Part shown: piece after piece, positions 13,392-25,956 of the stretch
Layout: each line of letters starts with the position of its first letter
How positions within the stretch are numbered: position 1 is the first letter of the stretch
From: Bacteroidota bacterium
GTDB taxonomy: Bacteria > Bacteroidota > Bacteroidia > B-17B0 > Aurantibacillaceae
Assembly (NCBI GenBank): GCA_023251755.1
Contig: JAHEYF010000011.1
Location: forward strand, 1-64,000
Reading direction: 5' to 3'
Length of the DNA stretch: 64,000 nt
Program-made: the position numbers and the translations under genes
The notes under the pieces: generated by a model
The model's input: only the letters and a program-made list of their open reading frames with translations
The model's database searches: none
Told to the model about the DNA's origin: nothing

Positions 13392-14438
13392 ATGAAGGCC
13401 ATCTCACTTGTATTACTTATATGGGTACTACAGACATCGGCAGCAACAGCCCATTTACCGCCAATAGCTGAGTTTTCCGCTACTGGCTTGTGTTATGGCG
13501 ACACCTCCAGATTTATTAATCTGTCAACAGGGGGAGTGTATTCAACATGGATTATACAAAAGTGGGACAGTATTTTAAACGATACAATTACATTAGATTC
13601 AGCATCCACCACTAATTTATCTTATTTATTTCCCTCACCAGGAACATATTACATTACACTTCGCGAAGATAATGGTCATGTTGTTGCTATCACCAAACAA
13701 ATAACAATCGGGAATAGTACCCTGGCCCTGTTTTCCTTTCAGGCCTGTACCAATAATTTTATTAATATGTCCACCTGTACACATTCCTGCCTGTGGGATT
13801 TTGGTGACGGAAATACATCTGCAATACCAATTACTACACATCAGTACGCAGACACAGGTTCATACATGGTAACATTAATTGTTTACAATGGAATGCAGAG
13901 CGACACCCTTATCAAACAAATTAAAGTAACGGAATTAGGTTTTCCTAAGCCTCAATTTCAGGTTCGCTTGTCAAACGATACCGCTTATTGCAAAATAACA
14001 GGTGGTATATGGACACAGGCTAATTTAACCTGGTATTATGGAGACAATACTTCCGCAACTTCAGCCGATACATTTCATGTATTTCAGGACACGGGTTCAT
14101 ACTATGTAAAGTTAAGGGTTTGGAACAGTTGCGGGGCTTTTATGAAAGATACTATTCTAACAATTATCCACAGCACTTATGTTAGAGAGTCTTCCGTCGT
14201 TAAATCAAATCCTGGTCTTTTTCCTAACCCGGTTGATGGCATACTAACAATTACATTGGAAAAAACAGAATCAATAAAATCCATTTGTATATACAGTTTA
14301 ATGGGTCAAAAAAAAATGGAGGAATATAATTTAGACAATTCTGCAGGCATTAATTTAAATCAGTTACAAACCGGGGTGTATATTATTTATATTAAAACCG
14401 ATCAGAATTTTTATTGCCGAAAATTTATGAAGCAATAA
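13392..14438 (+). CDS. PKD-domain protein with T9SS sorting domain
   Basis: A 348-residue protein with signal peptide (about residues 1-20, ending ATA). Three PKD-like immunoglobulin folds can be read. The clearest is CLWDFGDGNTSAIPITTHQY followed by ADTGSYMVTLIVYNG; a third has LTWYYGDNTSATS and DTGSYYVKLRVWNSCG. The last 80 residues form a T9SS type-A sorting domain (PGLFPNPVDGILTITLE, then GVYIIYIKTD). PKD repeats are usually structural or adhesive modules of surface proteins. No catalytic domain is attached, and the protein is short for the group. Its link to metal handling is not shown by the sequence. Confidence 0.82.
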   Translation: MKAISLVLLIWVLQTSAATAHLPPIAEFSATGLCYGDTSRFINLSTGGVYSTWIIQKWDSILNDTITLDSASTTNLSYLFPSPGTYYITLREDNGHVVAITKQITIGNSTLALFSFQACTNNFINMSTCTHSCLWDFGDGNTSAIPITTHQYADTGSYMVTLIVYNGMQSDTLIKQIKVTELGFPKPQFQVRLSNDTAYCKITGGIWTQANLTWYYGDNTSATSADTFHVFQDTGSYYVKLRVWNSCGAFMKDTILTIIHSTYVRESSVVKSNPGLFPNPVDGILTITLEKTESIKSICIYSLMGQKKMEEYNLDNSAGINLNQLQTGVYIIYIKTDQNFYCRKFMKQ

Positions 14439-14479
14439 ATGTCCGAAGGATTTAACTCCATGAAAAGTTGTCAAAAGAA

Positions 14480-14776
14480 ATGAAGGTATTGGTTTTTTGT
14501 TGCTGCGTTGAACAAGTTGAGAACATAGCCAATTCACTTAAAACAAGGGGTGTACTGGTATTAGCCGACACTATTTCGGTGGTAAAAAAATTTTACAACA
14601 TGTATTTAAATGAAAAGATCGGGCATTCTTTTATTTTATCCTATATGAATCACGGCAGGGAAGGGTATTTCTATTTAGTCTATGATACAAATGTGTTTAG
14701 TTATACCGAAGTTCAGAATTTAATTCAAAGGGCTAAGTTCGACAAGAGCCCGTGCTGTCATTGTAGCGTAAAATAA
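14480..14776 (+). CDS. Cys-rich orphan protein of about 98 residues
   Basis: A short cytosolic-looking protein beginning MKVLVFCCCVEQVENIANSL and ending FDKSPCCHCSVK, so Cys clusters (CCC and CCHC) stand at both ends of an otherwise alpha/beta-like chain. No signal peptide or membrane helix is apparent. I do not recognise the family. The Cys clusters and position just before the YHS-domain gene in a metal island suggest soft-metal binding, but this is an inference. An in-frame TTG four codons upstream (14468) is an alternative start. Confidence 0.5.
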   Translation: MKVLVFCCCVEQVENIANSLKTRGVLVLADTISVVKKFYNMYLNEKIGHSFILSYMNHGREGYFYLVYDTNVFSYTEVQNLIQRAKFDKSPCCHCSVK

Positions 14777-14970
14777 TACAAGGTCTGGTTGCTGAATCTG
14801 ATTACACAATTAAAGAAAATATTGAAACCCGCTTGGTAAAACCTTATTAGAGTAGATACTGTTATTGAAAATAATGAATATAAGGCATTCTGATAGAAAT
14901 CATGCACGTTTGGTGATAACGATCATGGTAAGGCAAAATATATTCCCTGAACTTGGCTAAAAACAAAGAA

Positions 14971-15408
14971 ATGAAAAACAAAACATTAAATTTCGCTACA
15001 TATTGGGCTATTATAGGTGTGCTTGAAGCCTGCTCAATGCTTAAAAATAAATCTTCTTCATCAGAATTTTATACTGATCCTGTATGCAATATGAAAGTTG
15101 AAAAAAACAATTCATTTGATTATAAATATAAAGGAGAAGCGTACCATTTCGATAGCCATAATTGCAAAGAAACTTTTAAAATGGCTCCTGAAAAATTTAC
15201 CCGAAACACATCCAATTTAACAAATACAGATTCTACTTCAATAAAATTCTATATTGACCCGGTATGTAATATGAAAATAGAAAAAGGAAGCTCGTATGAT
15301 TATAAGTATAAGGGCGAAGCTTATCATTTTGATAATTACAATTGCAGAGAAACTTTTAAGATGAGCCCTGAAAAATTTATAAAAAACAAATGCGATTCTA
15401 TAAAATAA
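14971..15408 (+). CDS. Tandem YHS-domain protein, probable exported metal-binding lipoprotein
   Basis: A 145-residue protein with two nearly identical YHS domains, residues 36-76 and 96-136. Each has the order DPVCNMK, YKYKGEAYHF, NC(K/R)ETFKM(A/S)PEKF. The N-terminus has a short hydrophobic stretch with a possible lipobox (GVLEAC, Cys21). YHS domains occur in copper-transport ATPases and in small copper- or heavy-metal-associated proteins. Internal duplication is evident at both protein and DNA level. It lies upstream of the second efflux locus. The ATG at 14971 is chosen; a TTG six codons earlier is possible. Confidence 0.8.
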   Translation: MKNKTLNFATYWAIIGVLEACSMLKNKSSSSEFYTDPVCNMKVEKNNSFDYKYKGEAYHFDSHNCKETFKMAPEKFTRNTSNLTNTDSTSIKFYIDPVCNMKIEKGSSYDYKYKGEAYHFDNYNCRETFKMSPEKFIKNKCDSIK

Positions 15409-15587
15409 TTTTTTAAAAAACTGCTTAATGCTAAGCCCCTGGATTGAGGCCTCCCCTGTTGCTTTTATACAAAGGTTTGATGTCAATTACGGTATGAGTT
15501 GAACTATGTTTCAAATCAGGAAGCGGAGGTGTGCCTTTGGGGCAGTTTTAATTGCAGTGAGAATACAGTTAACAAAAATAAATTTCG

Positions 15588-15595
15588 TACATTTG
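15588..15595 (+). promoter_or_regulatory. TAnnTTTG -7 box upstream of the second efflux locus
   Basis: tacatttg fits the -7 consensus and lies 52 bases before the GTG start at 15648. No TTG is found 19-21 bases further upstream, so support is partial. Confidence 0.4.
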
Positions 15596-15647
15596 TTTTT
15601 GCTTTTTCATTTAAACTCACTAAGTTTACATAACAGAATTTAATTTC

Positions 15648-16025
15648 GTGAAGAAAATTTTCGCCATATCGCTAAGCCTTGTTTTGCTCATAAGCACATT
15701 GGGATTAAGTGTTGTGGTGAACTATTGCCCCATGAAAAAGGACTACTCCTTTACATTACAACAGCACAAGTCCTGTTGTTGTAATGATTCCAAAAAAAAT
15801 GATTGCTGTAAGTATTCGAAATTTTCTTTCAGCAAAATAAAAGACAAATATGTTGCTTCTGCCTTTCAGTTAAATGTACCCCATCTTGATTTTATTATTC
15901 AGACAATTACTTTATATGTAGCCTCTCATCATTCGGCTGTAAAAGAAATTAAATTGTACACTTACCTTAAGCCACCAAAGCTATCGGTTTCACTGAGCAT
16001 ACTTTACCGTTCCCTTTTAATTTGA
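15648..16025 (+). CDS. Small exported Cys-rich protein, HYC_CC_PP-like (copy 3)
   Basis: A 125-residue protein with GTG start, signal or anchor MKKIFAISLSLVLLISTLG, then SVVVNYCPMKKDY. Here the His before YC is replaced by Asn. CCCNDSKKNDCCKYSK, FSKIKDKYVAS and LKPPKLSVSLSILYRSLLI at the end follow. The Cys-rich block and the PP element are as in copies 1 and 2. It is followed by an HMA protein gene, repeating the pair at 3328-4120. A periplasmic metal-related role is inferred from this repeated pairing. Sequence divergence from copy 1 is large, so the duplication is old or the pair was acquired independently. Confidence 0.68.
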   Translation: MKKIFAISLSLVLLISTLGLSVVVNYCPMKKDYSFTLQQHKSCCCNDSKKNDCCKYSKFSFSKIKDKYVASAFQLNVPHLDFIIQTITLYVASHHSAVKEIKLYTYLKPPKLSVSLSILYRSLLI

Positions 16026-16154
16026 TTTTATTCCTGCTTAATTCTTATCGTTAAATTCTAACGAATTTTTTTTCTATTCCTTTATTTATTCACCGTAAAC
16101 GGTTGAACTGACATAAATGTTATTCATTAACCTGTTTACCTAAAAACTTAAACT

Positions 16155-16499
16155 ATGAAACAAATAATTGTACTCTTATGCTGCCTTATGTTAAGCGCAG
16201 CTGGCATGGCCCAGGCCGACAAAAAAACAGAAACCTTTAAAGTGTATGGCAATTGCGAAATGTGTAAATCCACCATTGAAGGAGCTTTAAAGAAAAAAGA
16301 AGGGGTGCTTTCAAAAAAGTGGGATGTTAAAGCCAAAACCCTCACCGTTACTTACGATCCCGCTAAAATAAACATTCAGCAAATCGGACAGAAAGTAGCC
16401 ACGGTGGGTTACGACAATGAATACGCAACAGCCCCCGATGAAAAGTATAAAAAACTTCACCAGTGCTGCCAGTATCAACGTCCCGATAAAAAACAATAA
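16155..16499 (+). CDS. HMA-domain periplasmic protein, probable copper chaperone (copy 2)
   Basis: A 114-residue protein with a Sec signal peptide (MKQIIVLLCCLMLSAAGMAQ), then an HMA domain. TFKVYGNCEMCKSTIEGAL holds the metal-binding CEMC; WDVKAKTLTVTYDPAKI and ATVGYDNEYAT follow. The tail HQCCQYQRPDKKQ keeps the same CCQY as the copy at 3788. In contrast to copy 1 it appears to be soluble after signal cleavage rather than lipidated. It ends one base before the TTG proposed as the start of the pump gene, so it is the leading gene of the pump operon and may deliver Cu+ to the RND pump. Confidence 0.87.
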   Translation: MKQIIVLLCCLMLSAAGMAQADKKTETFKVYGNCEMCKSTIEGALKKKEGVLSKKWDVKAKTLTVTYDPAKINIQQIGQKVATVGYDNEYATAPDEKYKKLHQCCQYQRPDKKQ

Positions 16500-16500
16500 A

Positions 16501-17760
16501 TTGGTTCAAAGCCTCATATCCCTTTCCTTACGCAACCGCTGGTTGGTATTGCTTTTCAGCATAGGCTTATTCCTTTGGGGTGCTTATGCCGTGAAGCAAA
16601 ACCCTATTGATGCCATTCCTGACCTGTCAGAAAACCAGGTGATCGTATTTACGGAATGGATGGGCAGAAGTCCGCAGGTAATCGAAGATCAGATCACCTA
16701 TCCGCTTGCTTCCAACTTACAGGGTATACCCAATATCCGGAACATACGCGCTACCTCCATGTTTGGAATGAGTTTTATTTATGTGGTTTTTGAAGACAAT
16801 GTAGACATTTACTGGGCAAGAACAAGGGTACTCGAACGGCTGAATTATGCCCAGCGGCTTTTACCCGAAGGCATTAGCCCTGCGCTTGGCCCCGATGGCA
16901 CAGGTGTAGGGCATGTGTTCTGGTACACACTTGAAGCCCCTGGTTATGATTTGGGAGAACTCCGTTCCTTACAGGACTGGTACATTAAATACGGATTGCA
17001 AACCGTAAAGGGCGTAAGTGAAGTGGCATCCTTTGGTGGTTTTCAGAAACAATACCAGATAACGATTGACCCTAATAAACTCAACTATTACAACATCTCC
17101 TTGATGGATGTTTTAAAAACAGTGAAAGCCAACAACAATGATGTTGGTGGAAGAAAATTTGAAATGAGCGGTATAGGCTATATCGTAAGGGGCATGGGCT
17201 ATATCAAAAACCTGAAAGATGTGGAAAACATACCCGTTGGCAGGGATGGTACCACTCCAATACTTATAAAAGACATAGCCACTGTACAAATGGGAGGCGA
17301 TTTACGCCTCGGTATTTTTGATGAAAATGGAGAAGGTGAAGCCGTTGGGGGAATAGTAGTCATGCGTTATGGAGCCAATGCAGACAAAGTGATTACCGAT
17401 GTAAAAAAGAAAATGGCCGAAGTGGAGAAAGGATTACCGGAAGGAGTGAAATTTAAAATAGCTTACGACCGCAGCGAATTAATTGAAGCCGCCATCTCCT
17501 CCGTTAAAAAAACCATTATCGAAGAAATACTCATGGTGTCCCTCATTGTAATCCTGTTTCTGTTTCATTTGCGCAGCGCCTTCATCATCATCATTCAGAT
17601 TCCTGTTTCCATAGCGGCAAGTTTTATTTTGTTGCAGGCCTTTGGTATTTCATCCAATATAATGTCCATAACAGGGATTGCCTTGGCTATAGGAGTTGTG
17701 GTGGACGATGGGATTGTGATGGTGGAAAACGCTTACAGGCATTTGTCGGAGAACAATTAA
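16501..17760 (+). CDS. cusA: CusA-type RND metal pump, N-terminal half (TM1-TM4), split by in-frame TAA
   Basis: This 419-residue product covers TM1 (LRNRWLVLLFSIGLFLWGAY), the first periplasmic porter domain (IPDLSENQVIVFTEWMGRSP and onward), TM2, TM3 and TM4 with the proton-relay motif VVVDDGIVMVENAY. It stops at TAA (17758-17760) in the cytoplasmic loop between TM4 and TM5. The next 17 bases and the following gene continue in the same frame, and the two halves plus the five codons between them equal a normal CusA length. The stop is therefore a single nonsense codon or a true gene split. TTG 16501 gives the usual family N-terminus. ATGs at 16417 and 16438 would overlap the HMA gene by more than 60 bases. 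Confidence 0.88.
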   Translation: MVQSLISLSLRNRWLVLLFSIGLFLWGAYAVKQNPIDAIPDLSENQVIVFTEWMGRSPQVIEDQITYPLASNLQGIPNIRNIRATSMFGMSFIYVVFEDNVDIYWARTRVLERLNYAQRLLPEGISPALGPDGTGVGHVFWYTLEAPGYDLGELRSLQDWYIKYGLQTVKGVSEVASFGGFQKQYQITIDPNKLNYYNISLMDVLKTVKANNNDVGGRKFEMSGIGYIVRGMGYIKNLKDVENIPVGRDGTTPILIKDIATVQMGGDLRLGIFDENGEGEAVGGIVVMRYGANADKVITDVKKKMAEVEKGLPEGVKFKIAYDRSELIEAAISSVKKTIIEEILMVSLIVILFLFHLRSAFIIIIQIPVSIAASFILLQAFGISSNIMSITGIALAIGVVVDDGIVMVENAYRHLSENN

Positions 17761-17775
17761 ACGGAACGATTTTAC

Positions 17776-19692
17776 ATGACTGAAGAAAACAACATAAAAG
17801 AAGAAAAACGCCTCAGTATTATAGAACAGGCTTGCCGGCAAATTGGTAAGGGGGCTTTTTATTCTACCATCATCATTGTAGCTTCTTTTCTGCCCGTCTT
17901 TTTATTAACCGGACAGGAAGGAAAATTATTTTCCCCGCTTGCCTGGACAAAAACATTTATCTTATTGATTGACGCATTTATTGCTGTTACCCTTGTTCCT
18001 GTCTTAATTTCATTTTTTCTGAAAGGGAAATTTAAACCCGAATCGCAAAACCCGGTCAACCGTTTCTTACAGAAAATCTATTCCCCCATTATTCGTTGTT
18101 GTTTAAACTGGAGAAAAACATGCATCGGAATCAACTTCCTCGCCTTGTGCATCAGCGTACCCATGATCATAAGTCTGGGGACAGAGTTTATGCCACCATT
18201 GGACGAAGGAAGCATTTTATTTATGCCCGTTACTATGCCCGATGCCTCTAACGCTGAAATCAAAAGAATACTTCAGGTACAGGATAAAATCATTAAACGG
18301 GTACCGGAAGTGTTGACTGTGCTGGGAAAAGCAGGCAGAGCCTCTACCGCAACTGACAACTCCCCGATCAGCATGATTGAAACCATCATCCTCTTAAAAC
18401 CAAAAGCGGAATGGCGCAAAGGAATAAAAAAGGAAGACCTTGTCAACGAATTAAATGCTAAACTTCAGATTCCAGGAACAGTGAACGGCTGGACACAGCC
18501 CATCATCAACCGCATCAATATGCTTTCCACCGGAATAAGAACAGATGTGGGCGTGAAAGTACTGGGCGAAAATTTAGACACCATAAATGTAATTGCCCAG
18601 CACGTAAAACAGGCTTTAACCGGCATGGACGGAGTAAAGGATTTATATGCTGAACCCATAACAGGTGGCAAGTACATAGACATCAAAATAAACAAAGAAG
18701 AAATTGGCCGCTATGGTTTAAACGTAGAAGACGTAAACATGGTCATTGAATCTCTTATCGGGGGGATGAAACTGACCACTACCATTGAAGGCAGAAAGCG
18801 CTACAGTGTAAATGCCCGCCTGGCACAGGACTACAGAAACTCCCTGGAAGAAATAAAACGCACCATTATCCAGACACCTAATTACGGGCCAATACCACTT
18901 TCAATGGTCGCAGACATATCCCTTTCCGAAGGACCGCCCATGATACAATCTGAAAATTCCTTATTGAGAGGGACTGTGTTGTTTAATGTCCGTGGCCGCG
19001 ACTTGGGCAGCACCGTACACGATGCCCAGGAAAAAATAAACATGAAATTAAAAAAATTACCCAAAGGGTATTTTATTGAATGGAGTGGTCAATATGAAAA
19101 TCAAATACGGGCCGCCAATACCTTAAAAATTATTATTCCCATCGCCCTGCTCATTATATTCTTAGTTCTTTACATGGTATACAAATCCGTAAGGGAAGCT
19201 TTTTTCAGTTTAATTACCGTGCCCTTTGCGCTCATTGGCGGTGTTTACATAATTTACTTTTACCAGGTGAATTTATCGGTTGCTGTAGCCGTGGGCTTTA
19301 TAGCCCTTTTCGGGATCGCTGTTCAAACCGGAATTTTTATGGTGATTTACCTCCACGAATCTATGCACGAATTGGTAAAACTAAAAGGTAATTCAAGGGA
19401 AACAATTACGGATGAAGATTTGAAAGAATTTGTTTACCGTGGTGCGGCACAACGTTTACGTCCTAAAATAATGACTGTTTGTGTGGCACTTTTTGGATTG
19501 GTGCCTGTACTTTGGTCGCAGGGTGTGGGCAGCGATGTAATGATTCCCATTGTATTGCCTATGATTGGCGGGGTGTTTACTTCCTCCATTCATGTATTGC
19601 TCACCACCCCGGTTGTTTTTGAAATGACCAAACGTTATGAACTAAATAAATTCGGAAAAATGGACATGGTTGAATCATCCATAAAACATTAA
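17776..19692 (+). CDS. cusA: CusA-type RND metal pump, C-terminal half (TM5-TM12)
   Basis: A 638-residue product in the same frame as the preceding half. It begins in the cytoplasmic loop (EEKRLSIIEQACRQIGKGAF) and continues through TM5 (STIIIVASFLPVFLLTGQEG), TM6, TM7, the second periplasmic porter domain, and TM8-TM12 (IALLIIFLVLYMVYKSV; VAVGFIALFGIAVQTG; PIVLPMIGGVFTSSIHVLLT). An ATG at 17776 offers a restart 15 bases after the stop. With both ends of each half in the cytoplasm, two separately made chains could insert correctly and assemble. Otherwise the gene is either a pseudogene or affected by a sequence error. No other damage is seen in this half. Confidence 0.88.
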   Translation: MTEENNIKEEKRLSIIEQACRQIGKGAFYSTIIIVASFLPVFLLTGQEGKLFSPLAWTKTFILLIDAFIAVTLVPVLISFFLKGKFKPESQNPVNRFLQKIYSPIIRCCLNWRKTCIGINFLALCISVPMIISLGTEFMPPLDEGSILFMPVTMPDASNAEIKRILQVQDKIIKRVPEVLTVLGKAGRASTATDNSPISMIETIILLKPKAEWRKGIKKEDLVNELNAKLQIPGTVNGWTQPIINRINMLSTGIRTDVGVKVLGENLDTINVIAQHVKQALTGMDGVKDLYAEPITGGKYIDIKINKEEIGRYGLNVEDVNMVIESLIGGMKLTTTIEGRKRYSVNARLAQDYRNSLEEIKRTIIQTPNYGPIPLSMVADISLSEGPPMIQSENSLLRGTVLFNVRGRDLGSTVHDAQEKINMKLKKLPKGYFIEWSGQYENQIRAANTLKIIIPIALLIIFLVLYMVYKSVREAFFSLITVPFALIGGVYIIYFYQVNLSVAVAVGFIALFGIAVQTGIFMVIYLHESMHELVKLKGNSRETITDEDLKEFVYRGAAQRLRPKIMTVCVALFGLVPVLWSQGVGSDVMIPIVLPMIGGVFTSSIHVLLTTPVVFEMTKRYELNKFGKMDMVESSIKH

Positions 19693-19696
19693 AAAG

Positions 19697-20923
19697 ATGA
19701 AGCAGATACTAAAAATAATCAGCTTATCTGTCTTCTGCTTTCATAGTAGCAGCATTGCTGCGCAGGTAATGCCTTTAGATACTGTTTTGCTGAACATCGA
19801 AAAAAACAATGCCGGACTTAAAATGTATACGGCTAAAATGAATGCTTTAAACGAATATGCAAACGGCGCCAAAAGCTGGGATGCCCCTCTTGCAGGGGGA
19901 GGCTTGTGGATGACCCCTTATGAAAACCCCGGTATGGGTTCCCTGATGATTTCCATTGAACAAATGATCCCTAATCCCGCAAGGTTAAATGCAAAAAAAG
20001 ACTACATGAATTCCATGAGTGCGGAGCAGGCGGAGAATAAAAATTATACCAAAAACCAGCTCTTTGCTATTGCCAAACGCAACTATTACCGGTGTATCAT
20101 CTTAAAAAAGAAATTAATACTCCTGAAAGAAAGTCAATCCGTAATAGAACTAATGATAAAATCGGCAGAGATTAACTACGCCAGTGCCGATGGAAAACTC
20201 AATACCATTTACAAAATAAAAGCCCGCCTGGCTGGCCTGCAAAGCCTTATTGCCGGAACAGAAAATGAAATGCAGCAAAAAATTATTGCATTAAATACCC
20301 TGATGAACCGGCATATTATATTTGAGGTAGACACTTTTATTCAAATTAAAAATTATGAGGCGGCTTCACCTGACAGCAGCCTGCTTCAAAAAAACAGAAG
20401 TGACCTTAAGGCAATAGACCGTTTAACTGATGTATTGAAATACAAACAAAAAATGGAATTGACAAAAAGCAAACCCGGTTTTGGTGTACGCTACAACAAT
20501 ATGACTCCCTTTAATCCCAACCGCCCCAGCCAGTACAACATCATGGGCATGATGACCATTCCCATTGCCCCCTGGTCGTCGAAAGAATACAAAGCCAATA
20601 TAAAAGGGCTGGGATTTGAAATGGAAGAACTGCAGTGGAAAAAACAAAACCTGCTCAATGAAACCTGTGGAAGAATAGAAGCTATTCTTCTGGCCATTAA
20701 AAACTCCAGACAACAGCTCAGTATTTATAAACAAAGTATTCTTCCGGCACTTAACAATAACCTGAGCACCTCCCAGCTTGCCTACGGACAAAACAAAGAG
20801 AATTTATTTATTGTACTGGATGCCTGGGAAGCCCTGAACAACGCGCGTATCGAATTATTAAACAAAACAGAGGAACTTTTATACCTGCAGGTAGAATATG
20901 AAAAAGAAACAGAGCAAAAATAA
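19697..20923 (+). CDS. TolC/CusC-like outer-membrane efflux channel of the second pump
   Basis: A 408-residue protein with signal peptide (cleavage after SIAAQ, residue 23) and the long helical repeats of the TolC family: LDTVLLNIEKNNAGLKMYTA near the N-terminus, QMIPNPARLNAKKDYMNSMS, and a second helical repeat from about 295 (LGFEMEELQWKKQNLLNETC). It begins four bases after the pump's stop codon and overlaps the next adaptor gene by 26 bases, a clear operon arrangement. It should form the outer-membrane exit for the split CusA pump. Confidence 0.88.
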   Translation: MKQILKIISLSVFCFHSSSIAAQVMPLDTVLLNIEKNNAGLKMYTAKMNALNEYANGAKSWDAPLAGGGLWMTPYENPGMGSLMISIEQMIPNPARLNAKKDYMNSMSAEQAENKNYTKNQLFAIAKRNYYRCIILKKKLILLKESQSVIELMIKSAEINYASADGKLNTIYKIKARLAGLQSLIAGTENEMQQKIIALNTLMNRHIIFEVDTFIQIKNYEAASPDSSLLQKNRSDLKAIDRLTDVLKYKQKMELTKSKPGFGVRYNNMTPFNPNRPSQYNIMGMMTIPIAPWSSKEYKANIKGLGFEMEELQWKKQNLLNETCGRIEAILLAIKNSRQQLSIYKQSILPALNNNLSTSQLAYGQNKENLFIVLDAWEALNNARIELLNKTEELLYLQVEYEKETEQK

Positions 20924-22175
20924 GCCTGGTAATAAACAGGTTTGTTTTCATCATCTTTGCAGGGTGGTGGTATTGCTCTGTGCATTTTTTATAAGCTGCA
21001 ACAACAGCGAAACAAAAAAAGAAACTCAAACAAGTCAAAAGGAAAAAATAACATATTACTGTCCCATGCATCCTGAAATCCATCAGGATCATCCCGGAAA
21101 ATGCCCGAAGCCAGAATGCAGCGGAATGGAACTTGCAGTAAAAGAATCGGAAGAATACCTTGATGCGGCTTTAAAACCTGTATCCTCCAATGTGCTTTCA
21201 AAAATCCGGCTGATTAATCCTGAATATAAAAACAGGCCGGTTGTGGTAGATGCATTGGGCTACATAGACTATGATAATTTTTCCAAATTCGATATCTCCT
21301 CCCGATACAGCGGAAGAATTGATAAATTGTACATCCGCTTTAATTACCAGCCCATCAAAAAAGGAGAAATAGTATTTGAAGTATACAATGCTGACCTGGT
21401 GAATGCCCAGGAAAATTTGTTATACCTGTTAAAAAATTCCCCAACAGAAAAAGAACTGATTGAAACAGCGCGACAAAAACTAAAATTGTTGCAATTAAGT
21501 CCTGAACAGATTTCAGAAATTGAAAGCAGCAAGAATGTAAAAAGCACGGTTCCCATATACAGCAAATACAACGGGCACATCCATGAGATGCTGGATGCAA
21601 AAATGGCTTCGGTGGATATGAGCGATAACAAAAAAAGTTCCCTGATCTCGGTAAGAGAAGGAATGTACGTAGAGCGTGGAAAAGTATTGTTTAATGTGGT
21701 TGATCCGCACAGGGTGGTACTTATGTTAAAAATAAAGGCGGCAGACATGGCTAAAATTCATGTGGGACAAAGGGTCGATTTTATTGTCAACAATGATTCA
21801 ACTATGAAAATGAAGGGTAATGTTGATTTTATAGAGCCTGTTCTTGCTGCAAATTCAAAAAGCATGATGATCAGGGTAAATGTAAACAATGAAGGTCACC
21901 GGCATAAAACAGGAAGCCTGGTGAACGCGAAAATTACCGCTGATAGTTTCGATGCCTTGTGGGTTCCGGCTTCAGCCATAGTTGATTTAGGCAAACATAA
22001 AATAGCATGGCTGTGGAAAGAAAATAATTTCATAGCCGTGAAAGTGGAAACCGGTATACAGCTAAATAACTGGGTAGAAATTGCAGATGGCTTAACGGAA
22101 GCAGACAAAATAGCTGCGGAGGCACATTACCTGTCGGATAGCGAAAGTTTTATTAAAATCAATGAAAATGAATAA
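20898..22175 (+). CDS. RND periplasmic adaptor with heavy-metal-binding domain (first of two)
   Basis: A 425-residue protein. It has a long basic N-terminus before a lipoprotein signal (lipidation at Cys34 in AFFISC), then a heavy-metal-binding domain YYCPMHPEIHQDHPGKCP followed by CSGM (Cys55, His58, Cys69, Cys74). CusB-like barrel-sandwich halves follow (ISSRYSGRIDKLYIRFNYQP; VPIYSKYNGHIHEMLD), with a helical hairpin at about 150-210, a beta-barrel and a membrane-proximal domain. It overlaps the channel gene upstream and the second adaptor gene downstream. An initiator downstream of 20898 is possible, since the first 20 residues are unusually basic. It likely joins the CusA-type pump to its channel and binds Cu+ or Ag+. 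Confidence 0.88.
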   Translation: MKKKQSKNKPGNKQVCFHHLCRVVVLLCAFFISCNNSETKKETQTSQKEKITYYCPMHPEIHQDHPGKCPKPECSGMELAVKESEEYLDAALKPVSSNVLSKIRLINPEYKNRPVVVDALGYIDYDNFSKFDISSRYSGRIDKLYIRFNYQPIKKGEIVFEVYNADLVNAQENLLYLLKNSPTEKELIETARQKLKLLQLSPEQISEIESSKNVKSTVPIYSKYNGHIHEMLDAKMASVDMSDNKKSSLISVREGMYVERGKVLFNVVDPHRVVLMLKIKAADMAKIHVGQRVDFIVNNDSTMKMKGNVDFIEPVLAANSKSMMIRVNVNNEGHRHKTGSLVNAKITADSFDALWVPASAIVDLGKHKIAWLWKENNFIAVKVETGIQLNNWVEIADGLTEADKIAAEAHYLSDSESFIKINENE

Positions 22176-23412
22176 ACGTTTAAGCATAACTGTTTTTTCA
22201 TTCAGGCTGGTTTTAGTGCTGCTTGTTTTGTTGTGTGCTTCATCCTGCAACAACAAAACCAAAGAAATAATCGCTGAAAATGAATTTTACACCTGCTCCA
22301 TGGATCCGCAGATTATGGAAAAACAGGCCGGTATGTGCCCGATATGCAAAATGCCCCTCGCCAAAGTTATGATTGATAAATCGCAAATAAGGTTGATTCA
22401 CCTGAGCGATGAACAAATGAAACTTGGCAACATTCAAACAGACACCCTGCGCATAGATAGCATCTGGAACGAAAAAACGCTCAGCGGTGTATTTACTATT
22501 AATCAAAATTGCCAGCAACAAATCTCTTCCCGTTTTAACGGGCGTATTGAAAAATTGTATTTTAAAATCCCCGGCCAGGAAATAAAAGAAGGGGATTTAA
22601 TTTATGAAGTCTACAGCCGTGATTTAATGCAGGCCGAGGAAGAATATTTGTTTGCACTCAACAACAATAAGGCACTTGGAGCAAACGGTTATTTAATTGA
22701 ACCTGCAAAAAATAAACTTTTATTGTGGGGCTTAACCGACAATCAAATCAGGGAACTGGAAGAACAAAAGCAGGCAAGGATCATTAACCCTATTTACAGC
22801 AAGGTGTCGGGCACTGCAACGGAAATTTCATTTAAAGAAGGTGATTATATCAGCGAAGGCAGCAGCCTGTTTAAATTGGCCGACTTTAGTTCCCTGTGGG
22901 TAGAAGCGCAGGTGTATACCAACGAACTGCAGCTGATTGAGAAGGGTGCGAAATTACAGGTAATCCCCGAAGCCTTTCCCGAAGAAGTGATGGAGGGGGA
23001 AATTGATTTTTCAAATCCTGAATTACAGGCAGAAACTAAAATAAACCTGATCCGGATTAAAATCGAAAATAAAAGAAAACAATTTCTGCCAGGCATGATG
23101 GTCTTTGTGCTGATCAAAACAAAGCCTGAACCGGCTGTTAGTCTTCCTATTGACGCGGTGATTCAAAGCGGGCAACAATCACATGTGTGGCTGCGCAACA
23201 AAGACGGTTCCTTTGAGGCAAGGAAGGTAAATACAGGCATACAAACAAATGCAAAAATTGAAATTTTAAACGGATTAAAAGAAGGTGAAATAGTGGTTAC
23301 TTCGGGAGCTTACCTCATTTACAGCGATTATGTTTTTAAAAAGGGAATATATCCTTTAAATAAGGATGGTACACATTCAACAATGAGTAAAAAAGGAACA
23401 GGTAATTTTTAA
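22162..23412 (+). CDS. RND periplasmic adaptor with heavy-metal-binding domain (second of two)
   Basis: A 416-residue lipoprotein (lipidation at Cys29 in CASSC) with its own heavy-metal-binding domain FYTCSMDPQIMEKQAGMCPI followed by CKMPLAK (Cys45, Met47, Cys59, Cys62, Met64). The CusB fold then follows (ISSRFNGRIEKLYFKIPGQE; YSKVSGTATEISFKEGDYIS; LWVEAQVYTNELQLIEKGAK). The start overlaps the previous adaptor by 14 bases. Two adaptors in tandem for one pump suggest either a hetero-oligomeric adaptor ring or alternative partners, such as the other pump whose adaptor lacks the metal domain. The two are diverged from each other. Confidence 0.9.
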   Translation: MKMNKRLSITVFSFRLVLVLLVLLCASSCNNKTKEIIAENEFYTCSMDPQIMEKQAGMCPICKMPLAKVMIDKSQIRLIHLSDEQMKLGNIQTDTLRIDSIWNEKTLSGVFTINQNCQQQISSRFNGRIEKLYFKIPGQEIKEGDLIYEVYSRDLMQAEEEYLFALNNNKALGANGYLIEPAKNKLLLWGLTDNQIRELEEQKQARIINPIYSKVSGTATEISFKEGDYISEGSSLFKLADFSSLWVEAQVYTNELQLIEKGAKLQVIPEAFPEEVMEGEIDFSNPELQAETKINLIRIKIENKRKQFLPGMMVFVLIKTKPEPAVSLPIDAVIQSGQQSHVWLRNKDGSFEARKVNTGIQTNAKIEILNGLKEGEIVVTSGAYLIYSDYVFKKGIYPLNKDGTHSTMSKKGTGNF

Positions 23413-23413
23413 T

Positions 23414-23986
23414 ATGGAGCTTAATACACTTAAAATAGGGAATATGTGTTGCAGTCGTTGTATCACTGCGGTTACACTGGTTTTAAATGAGCTTGGAATT
23501 AAGTACAAAAAAGTTGAGCTGGGTTGTGCTGTAATTTATACTTCAAAGAATATAAAAGAAACTGAATTGGAATCCGCTTTTAAAAAATCCGGCTTCAGGC
23601 TGATTAAGTCTAAAGAAGAAGAAATTTCAGAGAAAGTAAAAACCTCAATTCACCACTTGTTTGCAGATTTTGAAACGATAGATTTTGGGAATTTCAACCT
23701 TATTGAGTACCTTGAACTACAGGTTCAAATACCCTATAAAACTCTTTCTGATTTTTTTTCCAAGCAGAATAAAAAAACAATTGAACATTATTTCATCCGT
23801 TATAAAATAGAAAAAGTAAAATCCATGATTAGTGATTCCGGTTACTCGTTTTCCGAGATCGCATTTAAGTTAGGTTACCATTCTCTTTCACACCTATCTA
23901 AACAATTTAAGGCTTGTGAAGGTGTTTCAATGAGCAGCTATAAGCTGAAGCCTAATAATAGGAGGAATTTTATAGATAAAATATAG
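23414..23986 (+). CDS. AraC-family regulator with metal-binding HMA-like N-terminus
   Basis: A 190-residue protein. Residues 1-75 resemble an HMA ferredoxin-like domain: LKIGNMCCSRCITAVTLVL carries M-x-C-x-x-C (Cys13, Cys16, with Cys12 beside it), and VELGCAVIYTSKN and SGFRLI complete the fold. Residues 95-180 are an AraC-type double helix-turn-helix domain (LSDFFSKQNKKTIEHYFIRY; SFSEIAFKLGYHSLSHLSKQ). Bacteroidota have many short AraC proteins with this N-terminal fold, usually without the Cys pair as far as I recall. Here the retained CxxC, and a position two bases after the adaptor gene, suggest a one-component Cu+ sensor controlling the pump operon. The sensing role is inferred. Confidence 0.8.
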   Translation: MELNTLKIGNMCCSRCITAVTLVLNELGIKYKKVELGCAVIYTSKNIKETELESAFKKSGFRLIKSKEEEISEKVKTSIHHLFADFETIDFGNFNLIEYLELQVQIPYKTLSDFFSKQNKKTIEHYFIRYKIEKVKSMISDSGYSFSEIAFKLGYHSLSHLSKQFKACEGVSMSSYKLKPNNRRNFIDKI

Positions 23987-24039
23987 GCCTGGTAAAGTTT
24001 TAAAGGTTAAAGTATAAATACAATCATCTAAAAAAGATG

Positions 24040-24047
24040 TATGTTTG
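24040..24047 (+). promoter_or_regulatory. TAnnTTTG -7 box upstream of T9SS thioredoxin-fold gene
   Basis: tatgtttg fits the -7 consensus, 48 bases before the ATG at 24095. Just before it, atcatct and agatgtat form a short imperfect dyad. No clear -33 TTG is seen. Confidence 0.4.
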
Positions 24048-24094
24048 TTAAGCATCAAATGAAGAAATAATTAAACCAATTTAATAAATACACC

Positions 24095-24874
24095 ATGAAA
24101 AAAAATTTACTCCTCACATTGGCAAGTTTAATGGCCGTCTTTGGTTTTTCGCAAACAGCCGGTAATTTTACCTGCAACGATTGTTCGGGCAACAACCATG
24201 ATTTATTTACTGAGCTCAATTCAGGCAAGGTTATTGTTATTGCCTGGGTGATGCCCTGCGGTGCCTGTATTAGCGGCGCCCTGGCAGGCTATACACAGGT
24301 TCAGGGTTTTCAAAGTTCAAATCCGGGAACGGTTCTGTTTTATTTAGCCGATGATGTGGCCAATACAAGTTGCAGCAGCTTAACAAGCTGGGCCAATACA
24401 AATGGAATGAGCGGGGCCAACGCTGTTTTTTCAAATTCCACAGTGAACATGAGTCCCTATGGCACAGCCGGAATGCCCAAGGTTGTTGTATTAGGAGGCA
24501 GCAACCATGCTGTATTTTACAACCAGAATGGAAGCGCTATTACCCAATCGGGTATACAAAGCGCCATTGCCGCCGCTATTGCCGCAAACACTGCGGGTAT
24601 TAATGTGAAAAGTAATTTTTCATCAATTGAAATGTATCCCAATCCCTCCAATTCATCCTCGACCCTGGCTTTAAAATTAGTGAAAGCTACCCAGGTAAAA
24701 ATTGAAGTACAGAATCAATTGGGGCAAAAAGTAGCGGAAGTACTTAATAGCAACCTGCCTCAGGGGGATAACACTGTAAAAATTGACCTTACAGAATTAG
24801 CCAACGGAACTTATTTTATTTCATGTTCTGACGGGGAAGTATCTAAAAAATTAAAACTGATTGTACTGCGTTAA
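24095..24874 (+). CDS. Thioredoxin-fold protein with CGAC site and T9SS sorting domain
   Basis: A 259-residue protein with signal peptide ending FGFSQ (residue 20) and a thioredoxin-like domain. FTCNDCSGNNHDLFTELNSG has Cys27 and Cys30. VIVIAWVMPCGACISGAL holds the redox motif C55-G-A-C58, and GTAGMPKVVVLGG marks the cis-Pro loop. From about residue 175 there is a type-A T9SS sorting domain (IEMYPNPSNSSSTLAL, then GTYFISCSDG). It is clearly related to the protein at 6031 (same ...DC.GN.HDLFTEL.SG opening). A second CxxC in the N-terminal segment (CNDC) is not shared by the relative. It is likely an extracellular thiol or metal-handling protein. It has its own promoter-like box and a strong terminator. 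Confidence 0.85.
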   Translation: MKKNLLLTLASLMAVFGFSQTAGNFTCNDCSGNNHDLFTELNSGKVIVIAWVMPCGACISGALAGYTQVQGFQSSNPGTVLFYLADDVANTSCSSLTSWANTNGMSGANAVFSNSTVNMSPYGTAGMPKVVVLGGSNHAVFYNQNGSAITQSGIQSAIAAAIAANTAGINVKSNFSSIEMYPNPSNSSSTLALKLVKATQVKIEVQNQLGQKVAEVLNSNLPQGDNTVKIDLTELANGTYFISCSDGEVSKKLKLIVLR

Positions 24875-24889
24875 TTTATTTTTTATTCG

Positions 24890-24921
24890 AAAAAGCCAAC
24901 GAATATTTGTTGGCTTTTTTT
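24890..24921 (+). terminator. Rho-independent terminator
   Basis: aaaaagccaac at 24890-24900 pairs perfectly with gttggcttttt from 24909, with an eight-base loop and a continuing T run. It lies 16 bases after the stop of the thioredoxin-fold gene. Confidence 0.8.
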
Positions 24922-24945
24922 ATTTTAATGTTTAAACCCTCAGCT

Positions 24946-25956
24946 ATGCGTTCTGTTTTATTCACCGGTTTTATTTTTCTGTATGCCCTTAAAGCTTATA
25001 CCCAGGGTTGCTGTTCGGGTGGTAGCGCCAGCCCCATTGCAGGGGGTGCGTCACAGGGGGTGTTGCAGGAAAGACAAGTTGAATTTGCCATGAATTTTCA
25101 GCACCTGAACTCCAACCGTTTTTTAGTCGGTGACAGAGACACCGCTTCGTTATTTGATGATTTATCCAGCAATTATTTATACCTGCGAATGGCTTATGGA
25201 GTAACGCCAAAATTAACGATGTCAATAGAATCGGGTTACTTTTTAAACAGGACGCAGATCGGTTTGGACAAATCGGACACGATAAAATCATCCGGGATTG
25301 GTGATTTAATTTTGTTTCCGCGCTATAGTTTATACGTCCACAATACAGAAAGCACACGTACAGAAATTACCCTGGGGATGGGGCTTAAAATACCCCTGGG
25401 GAAATACAACGATTCAACAGTGGTATTTACAAATGCAGCAACCGGGCAAAAATATTACACCACCGATCCGCCTACCATACAGCCTACCAATGGCTCCCAT
25501 GATTTTATTTTTTATGGTTTTATCTTCAGGGGATATCCCGAAAAGTCGTTTCGGATTTTTTCGAATTTAATTTACATTAAAAAAGGATGGAACCCTTTGG
25601 GTGAAAAATTTGGAGATTATGCCAGTATAGGGCTTTTTGCAAGTAAAACATTTTTCACAAAATTAGGTGTTACTTTGCAGCTCAAGGGCGAACACGTTGC
25701 CAAAATGCAGCACGATAAAAACATAGATTTACTGGCTTTGTACAATGTTGATGTGACTTCTACAGGAAACAGAAAAGTGTTTTTCGTACCTCAGTTAAGT
25801 TTCACTCACAGGACATTTACCATCTATGCCCTGAGCGAAATACCCCTGTACCAGTACTTAAACGGAACACAGGTGGGTTCCAAATTTCAGTTGACGGGAG
25901 GTGTATCGTACCGCTTTTTTGTGAAGAAAAAAATGGTAGAGGAAGAAAGTAAATAA
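24946..25956 (+). CDS. Probable outer-membrane beta-barrel protein with N-terminal GCCSGG
   Basis: A 336-residue protein with signal peptide ending AYTQ. The mature N-terminus is GCCSGGSASPIAGGASQGVL, followed by alternating amphipathic beta strands: VEFAMNFQHLNSN, LYLRMAYGVTPKLTMSIESG, TRTEITLGMGLKIPLG, GVTLQLKGEHVAK, and QLTGGVSYRFFV near the end. This is the pattern of a Bacteroidota outer-membrane barrel. I do not recognise a named family. The Cys pair at the mature N-terminus and its place at the end of the metal island suggest metal contact, but nothing in the sequence proves it. ATG 24928 is an alternative start; upstream the frame enters the terminator. Confidence 0.65.
   Translation: MRSVLFTGFIFLYALKAYTQGCCSGGSASPIAGGASQGVLQERQVEFAMNFQHLNSNRFLVGDRDTASLFDDLSSNYLYLRMAYGVTPKLTMSIESGYFLNRTQIGLDKSDTIKSSGIGDLILFPRYSLYVHNTESTRTEITLGMGLKIPLGKYNDSTVVFTNAATGQKYYTTDPPTIQPTNGSHDFIFYGFIFRGYPEKSFRIFSNLIYIKKGWNPLGEKFGDYASIGLFASKTFFTKLGVTLQLKGEHVAKMQHDKNIDLLALYNVDVTSTGNRKVFFVPQLSFTHRTFTIYALSEIPLYQYLNGTQVGSKFQLTGGVSYRFFVKKKMVEEESK

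Follow-up and report, generated by a model that had tools for sequence, protein, structure and literature searches.

The HME-RND permease CusA of Escherichia coli is a single chain of 1,047 amino acids (aa). Three methionines and E625 bind Cu(I), and D405, E939, and K984 form the proton relay; a point mutation of E939 stops the pump, and M410 is sited at the cytosolic entry (PMC8092243). RND-type proteins made by two genes have been described elsewhere. SecD/SecF is a 12-helix unit of two polypeptides that are fused in some organisms, and MdtB and MdtC, which form an HAE-1 heterotrimer, are complete permeases that arose by duplication (PMC8277102). For CusA-type permeases, no description of a split form was found in the open-access literature, with subscription papers and preprints lying outside this scope. 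Here, we analyzed a locus in Bacteroidota where such a permease appears to be encoded in two parts.

Organization of the locus

The window, i.e., the whole stretch of 64,000 nucleotides analyzed here, is on contig C35 of a 4.64-Mb draft genome (217 contigs, 93% complete). On its forward strand, the N-half gene of a CusA-type permease (16501 to 17760; 419 aa, TTG start, TAA stop) is followed by a 15-nt spacer (17761 to 17775; the five codons ACG GAA CGA TTT TAC) and then by the C-half gene (17776 to 19692; 638 aa, ATG start). An earlier note on this DNA had described a permease cut by an in-frame TAA (17758 to 17760) and no other lesion, and translation confirmed this. A single frame runs from TTG 16501 through ATG 17776 to TAA 19690 to 19692 and is interrupted only by the TAA at 17758.

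The N-half contains TM1, the periplasmic domains, TM2 to TM4, and the proton-relay Asp (CusA D405), while the C-half contains TM5 to TM12, the three-Met copper site, and the Lys of the relay. Both matched E. coli CusA (E = 1e-129 and 3e-164, respectively). Against the CusA/CzcA profile TIGR00914 (1,051 positions), the N-half covered positions 2 to 424 with 470.8 bits and the C-half positions 428 to 1038 with 610.1 bits; either half alone scores under the curated cutoff of 701 bits. The standard TIGR00914 permease is one chain of ~1,050 aa with 12 TM helices, whereas the window has two open reading frames, for TM1 to TM4 and TM5 to TM12. As these two frames of 419 and 638 aa are conserved in relatives, the locus is regarded as a two-chain variant and a nonstandard HME member.

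Aligned to CusA of E. coli, the two halves part at about residues 421 to 432, after TM4 and in the TM4-TM5 loop on the cytosolic side, where the earlier note had placed the cut. The accompanying view that this is the one place permitting two chains was imprecise, since other cytoplasmic loops are topologically possible, as in the 6+6 cut of SecD/SecF.

The TTG at 16501 lies just past the stop of an HMA-domain gene, and the in-frame ATGs at 16417 and 16438 overlap that gene. In the nearest relatives, L035, L036, and L037, an ATG start aligned with TTG 16501, which is therefore the likely start of the N-half. The start of the C-half in the window, MTEENNIKEEKRL, aligned with the C-half starts of relatives (MNQENKIKEEKRL in L035). 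ATG 17776 coincided with the start codons of L035, L037, and L038, which use other frames. Thus, the ATG that had been proposed as ready for reinitiation is an inherited start and no accident.

The upstream HMA-domain gene (16155 to 16499; PF00403) encodes a MerP/CopZ-like periplasmic protein and directly precedes the N-half. Downstream, on the same strand, are the genes for a TolC/CusC-type outer-membrane factor (19697 to 20923; PF02321), two CusB-type periplasmic adaptors with a heavy-metal binding domain (20898 to 22175, with PF16576 and PF19335, and 22162 to 23412), and a regulator with an AraC-type HTH and a weak HMA-like N terminus (23414 to 23986), the last being a neighbor that is not conserved. 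The permease genes stand in an operon with adaptors and an outer-membrane factor, as in a tripartite CusCBA-type system. A scan of the operon for sigma-70 and terminator patterns gave promoter-like hits close to the shuffled number, and no Rfam match was obtained in window positions 14000 to 25000. Upstream of the operon, positions 14953 to 15408 encode a protein with two YHS domains. The closest other CusA-like permease in the same genome is no more than 31% identical. At positions 2 to 463, the contig edge truncates a further RND permease (31% identical) to its C-terminal part.

The same split in related genomes

The earlier note had proposed a search for the same split in related genomes. 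A scan of genome contigs yielded 79 loci and searches in related genomes added more, so that 98 distinct split junctions were analyzed. The same TM4-TM5 cut was present at all 98, across Bacteroidota and including cultured strains and complete plasmids. The stop codons homologous to the TAA of the window were TGA at 54 junctions, TAA at 39, and TAG at 5. The C-half was in a different frame from the N-half at 86 of 98 junctions, and the commonest junction was a 4-nt ATGA overlap (-4; 45/98). The two halves shared a frame in the window and in 11 other relatives.

Uninterrupted genes in all close relatives had been named in advance as a result that would speak against the split. The nearest relatives of the window (C-halves 87, 86, 83, and 81% identical) were all split, with unrelated junction sequences, for example, TGA at +35 in L035, -1 in L037, and the ATGA overlap at -4 in L038. 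In L014 and L036, the halves flank a gene for a lipoprotein-like protein of 78 aa that carries a heavy-metal binding domain (HMBD; L036, 4759 to 4992), and in L104 they flank a member of the 23S-rRNA-intervening-sequence-protein family (23S-IVP-like). In genome G334, from another class of Bacteroidota, the order is reversed (L192, 704 to 7795): C-half, TolC, two CusB-type adaptors, and N-half. On this sequence evidence, the N-half and C-half are separate genes. Given the intervening genes and the reversed order in G334, neither readthrough nor frameshifting nor assembly error can account for the split in general. Farther past the N-half of G334, an 835-aa protein with an HMA-like start is encoded. 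In two other loci, the C-half was seemingly disrupted further through decay, error, or a further split: on a Hymenobacter radiodurans plasmid (L187), only 1.1 kb of it is annotated, and in L193 (genome G048), it is in two overlapping frames.

The order N-half, C-half, TolC, and two CusB-type adaptors was nearly invariant. Counting only relatives with enough flanking sequence, the outer-membrane factor adjoined the C-half in 72 of 74, the first adaptor was kept in 70 of 72, and the second in 67 of 68. Complete plasmids of Runella slithyformis, Haliscomenobacter hydrossis, and Adhaeribacter swui shared this order, and the halves are annotated there as two "efflux RND transporter permease subunit" genes. 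On pSLIN01 of Spirosoma linguale, the protein table lacks the locus tag at the permease, Slin_6821; annotation as a broken gene is the probable reason.

Evolutionary history of the split

In a phylum-wide sample, the 21 listed genomes of the same class with a close match were all split (junctions were read for most), and the listed matches in other classes of Bacteroidota were fused, except for G334. In the tree, all split members fell into one clade with a support of 100, with eight fused members nested inside and the fused homologues of other classes outside. The nested fused frames were intact (1,055 to 1,257 aa). In genome G047, the gene is fused and its single TAA is the terminal stop. 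The two-gene arrangement is ancient, and most members of one Bacteroidota clade retain it.

Since eight fused members are nested in the split clade, one ancient split followed by about seven refusions would be the cheapest history, the direction being a parsimony inference set by the fused outgroups. The parsimony minimum was 8 changes. The first tree contained very long branches, and when it was rebuilt without them, the same count was obtained. A split clade without the nested fused members was rejected by the AU test (p = 8e-32). Many independent breaks at the same loop, with the same present function, would be an alternative history. The TM4-TM5 loop is permissive for breaks, and junction sequences vary widely among subclades, but with refusion forbidden, 17 independent splits are needed instead of 8 changes in total, and every fused outgroup falls outside the clade, whose support is 100. 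We therefore regard repeated breakage as rather unlikely. Under the preferred history of one split and later refusions, each refusion brings back a single chain, which is what cooperating halves would lead one to expect.

Selection, key residues, and predicted structure

Both halves are under strong purifying selection, with dN/dS values of 0.015 to 0.033 (Nei-Gojobori; pairs with measurable dS). As dS was saturated between the window and its nearest relatives, these values rest on other pairs.

The equivalents of D405 in the N-half and of M573, M623, M672, E625, and T987 in the C-half were invariant in 59 of 59 dereplicated split members, and K984 was kept in 56 of 59. The Met triad and E625, which mark the Cu(I)/Ag(I) subgroup of CusA, were identical in the window, as were D405 and K984. 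With D405 in the N-half and K984 in the C-half, the relay is divided between two chains. The position of E939 is Glu in 54 of the 59 members and Gln in the subclade of the window (five rows: the window, L014, L035, L037, and L038); in the window, this Gln is residue 517 of the C-half, at about 19324 to 19326. Since mutation of this residue stops CusA, energy coupling in the subclade is uncertain. Among the transmembrane Met pairs of the split clade, M391-M1009 was kept, but M403-M486 and M410-M501 had each mostly lost one Met or both, and on this basis the metal is more likely taken up from the periplasm. AlphaFold models of the single halves had four and eight membrane-spanning helices and CusA as the best match, with moderate confidence (pLDDT of 68 and 75); each half was modeled separately, and pairing lies beyond the reach of these models.

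A proposed two-chain pump and its alternatives

Very probably, the two adjacent genes encode one HME permease in two polypeptides, an N-chain with TM1 to TM4 and a C-chain with TM5 to TM12. Among the four options raised earlier, namely, a functional two-chain pump, stop readthrough, a recent nonsense mutation, and a base-calling error, it is the first that gains support, its function being inferred from conservation.

A full-length pump made from one frame by readthrough or other recoding of the stop would suit the shared frame of the window and 11 other relatives. However, programmed readthrough requires that the stop be conserved and that the parts before and after it share a frame, and three stops are used here, the frames differ at 86 of 98 junctions, overlaps or an intervening gene separate some halves, and the order is reversed in G334. 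In addition, no structured RNA was found around the stop of the window (fold z = +1.0), and neighbors that use other frames keep the ATG at which the C-half starts. Readthrough is thus excluded for the family and is barely conceivable for the window. Nor is there much room for a recent nonsense mutation or sequencing error in a single gene, i.e., a pseudogene. One in-frame stop is indeed the sole interruption, and the assembly is a draft, but the nearest relatives are all split at unrelated junction sequences, both halves are under purifying selection, and the same split occurs in isolates and complete plasmids. For the family, mutation and base-calling error are excluded, and for the window, they are highly improbable; chance or a draft artifact was rejected on the same recurrence in related genomes and complete plasmids. 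A loss of pump function, with the halves now in separate roles, might be suggested by their being separable or reorderable and by the loss of E939 in the subclade of the window. Conservation of the substrate and relay residues in both halves, the operon shared with TolC and adaptors, and the repeated refusions all count against it and make it very unlikely.

We favor an obligate RND pump for Cu(I)/Ag(I) that would be built from two chains, with 4+8 helices and a proton relay shared between them. Both chains would insert into the inner membrane, leaving their new ends on the cytoplasmic side, and would associate as one protomer of 12 helices; the usual RND trimer would consist of three such protomers. 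D405, the Asp that accepts protons, would come from the N-chain; the C-chain would contribute K984 (Lys) and the metal site with its three methionines. With relay and metal site distributed in this way, neither half could be expected to pump alone. Together with TolC and the two adaptors, the trimer would export Cu(I)/Ag(I), which is the probable substrate because of the Met triad and the metal-binding neighbors. The ATGA overlap in about half of the relatives suggests translational coupling, and the 15-nt gap in the window points to initiation at ATG 17776 that is either coupled or independent.

It is possible, if doubtful, that the split is used rather than merely tolerated. Separate synthesis and assembly of the chains might set the number of active pumps, or halves from several split operons in one genome might form hybrids, and the broken loop might dock the metal-binding proteins sometimes encoded between the halves. 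If so, the repeated refusions would mark lineages that abandoned such control.

Significance and comparison with known systems

In a published survey of HME pumps, hits were retained only if they exceeded 80% coverage and 852 aa (PMC10872679); both halves would therefore be dropped, and the split form would be invisible. In databases, the halves carry generic permease-subunit labels or are probably listed as a broken gene, and copper and silver resistance in Bacteroidota is therefore likely undercounted. A natural two-chain permease for tripartite metal efflux would also be a ready system for studying RND protomer folding, assembly, and the coupling of protons to export, as the chains can be paired, omitted, or fused and then compared with naturally re-fused relatives.

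The closest described system is CusA, which the halves resemble over the whole length, in the three-Met Cu(I)/Ag(I) site with E625, D405, and K984, and in an operon with an adaptor and an outer-membrane factor. In contrast to the single chain of CusA, the window has two genes, and two different adaptors; the M403-M486 and M410-M501 pairs are mostly lost in the split clade, and E939 is Gln in the subclade of the window. RND-TolC fusion permeases of Bacteroidota (about 1,460 aa) share the phylum, the CusA/CzcA-like character, and an unusual gene architecture, but they are joined to an outer-membrane factor rather than split and are 35 to 38% identical. CusA/CzcA-like frames of 1,450 to 1,500 aa were also seen at L022 (1498 to 5877) and in many other matches, and the one tested has a C-terminal OEP/TolC domain. 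MdtB/MdtC likewise has two adjacent RND permease genes per pump, but each of these is complete, whereas each gene of the window covers only part of the profile and encodes part of one permease. SecD/SecF is alike as an RND-type unit of two polypeptides but serves protein translocation without a tripartite system and is cut between the pseudorepeats into two chains of six TM helices each, whereas the permease of the window is divided 4+8, inside the first repeat.
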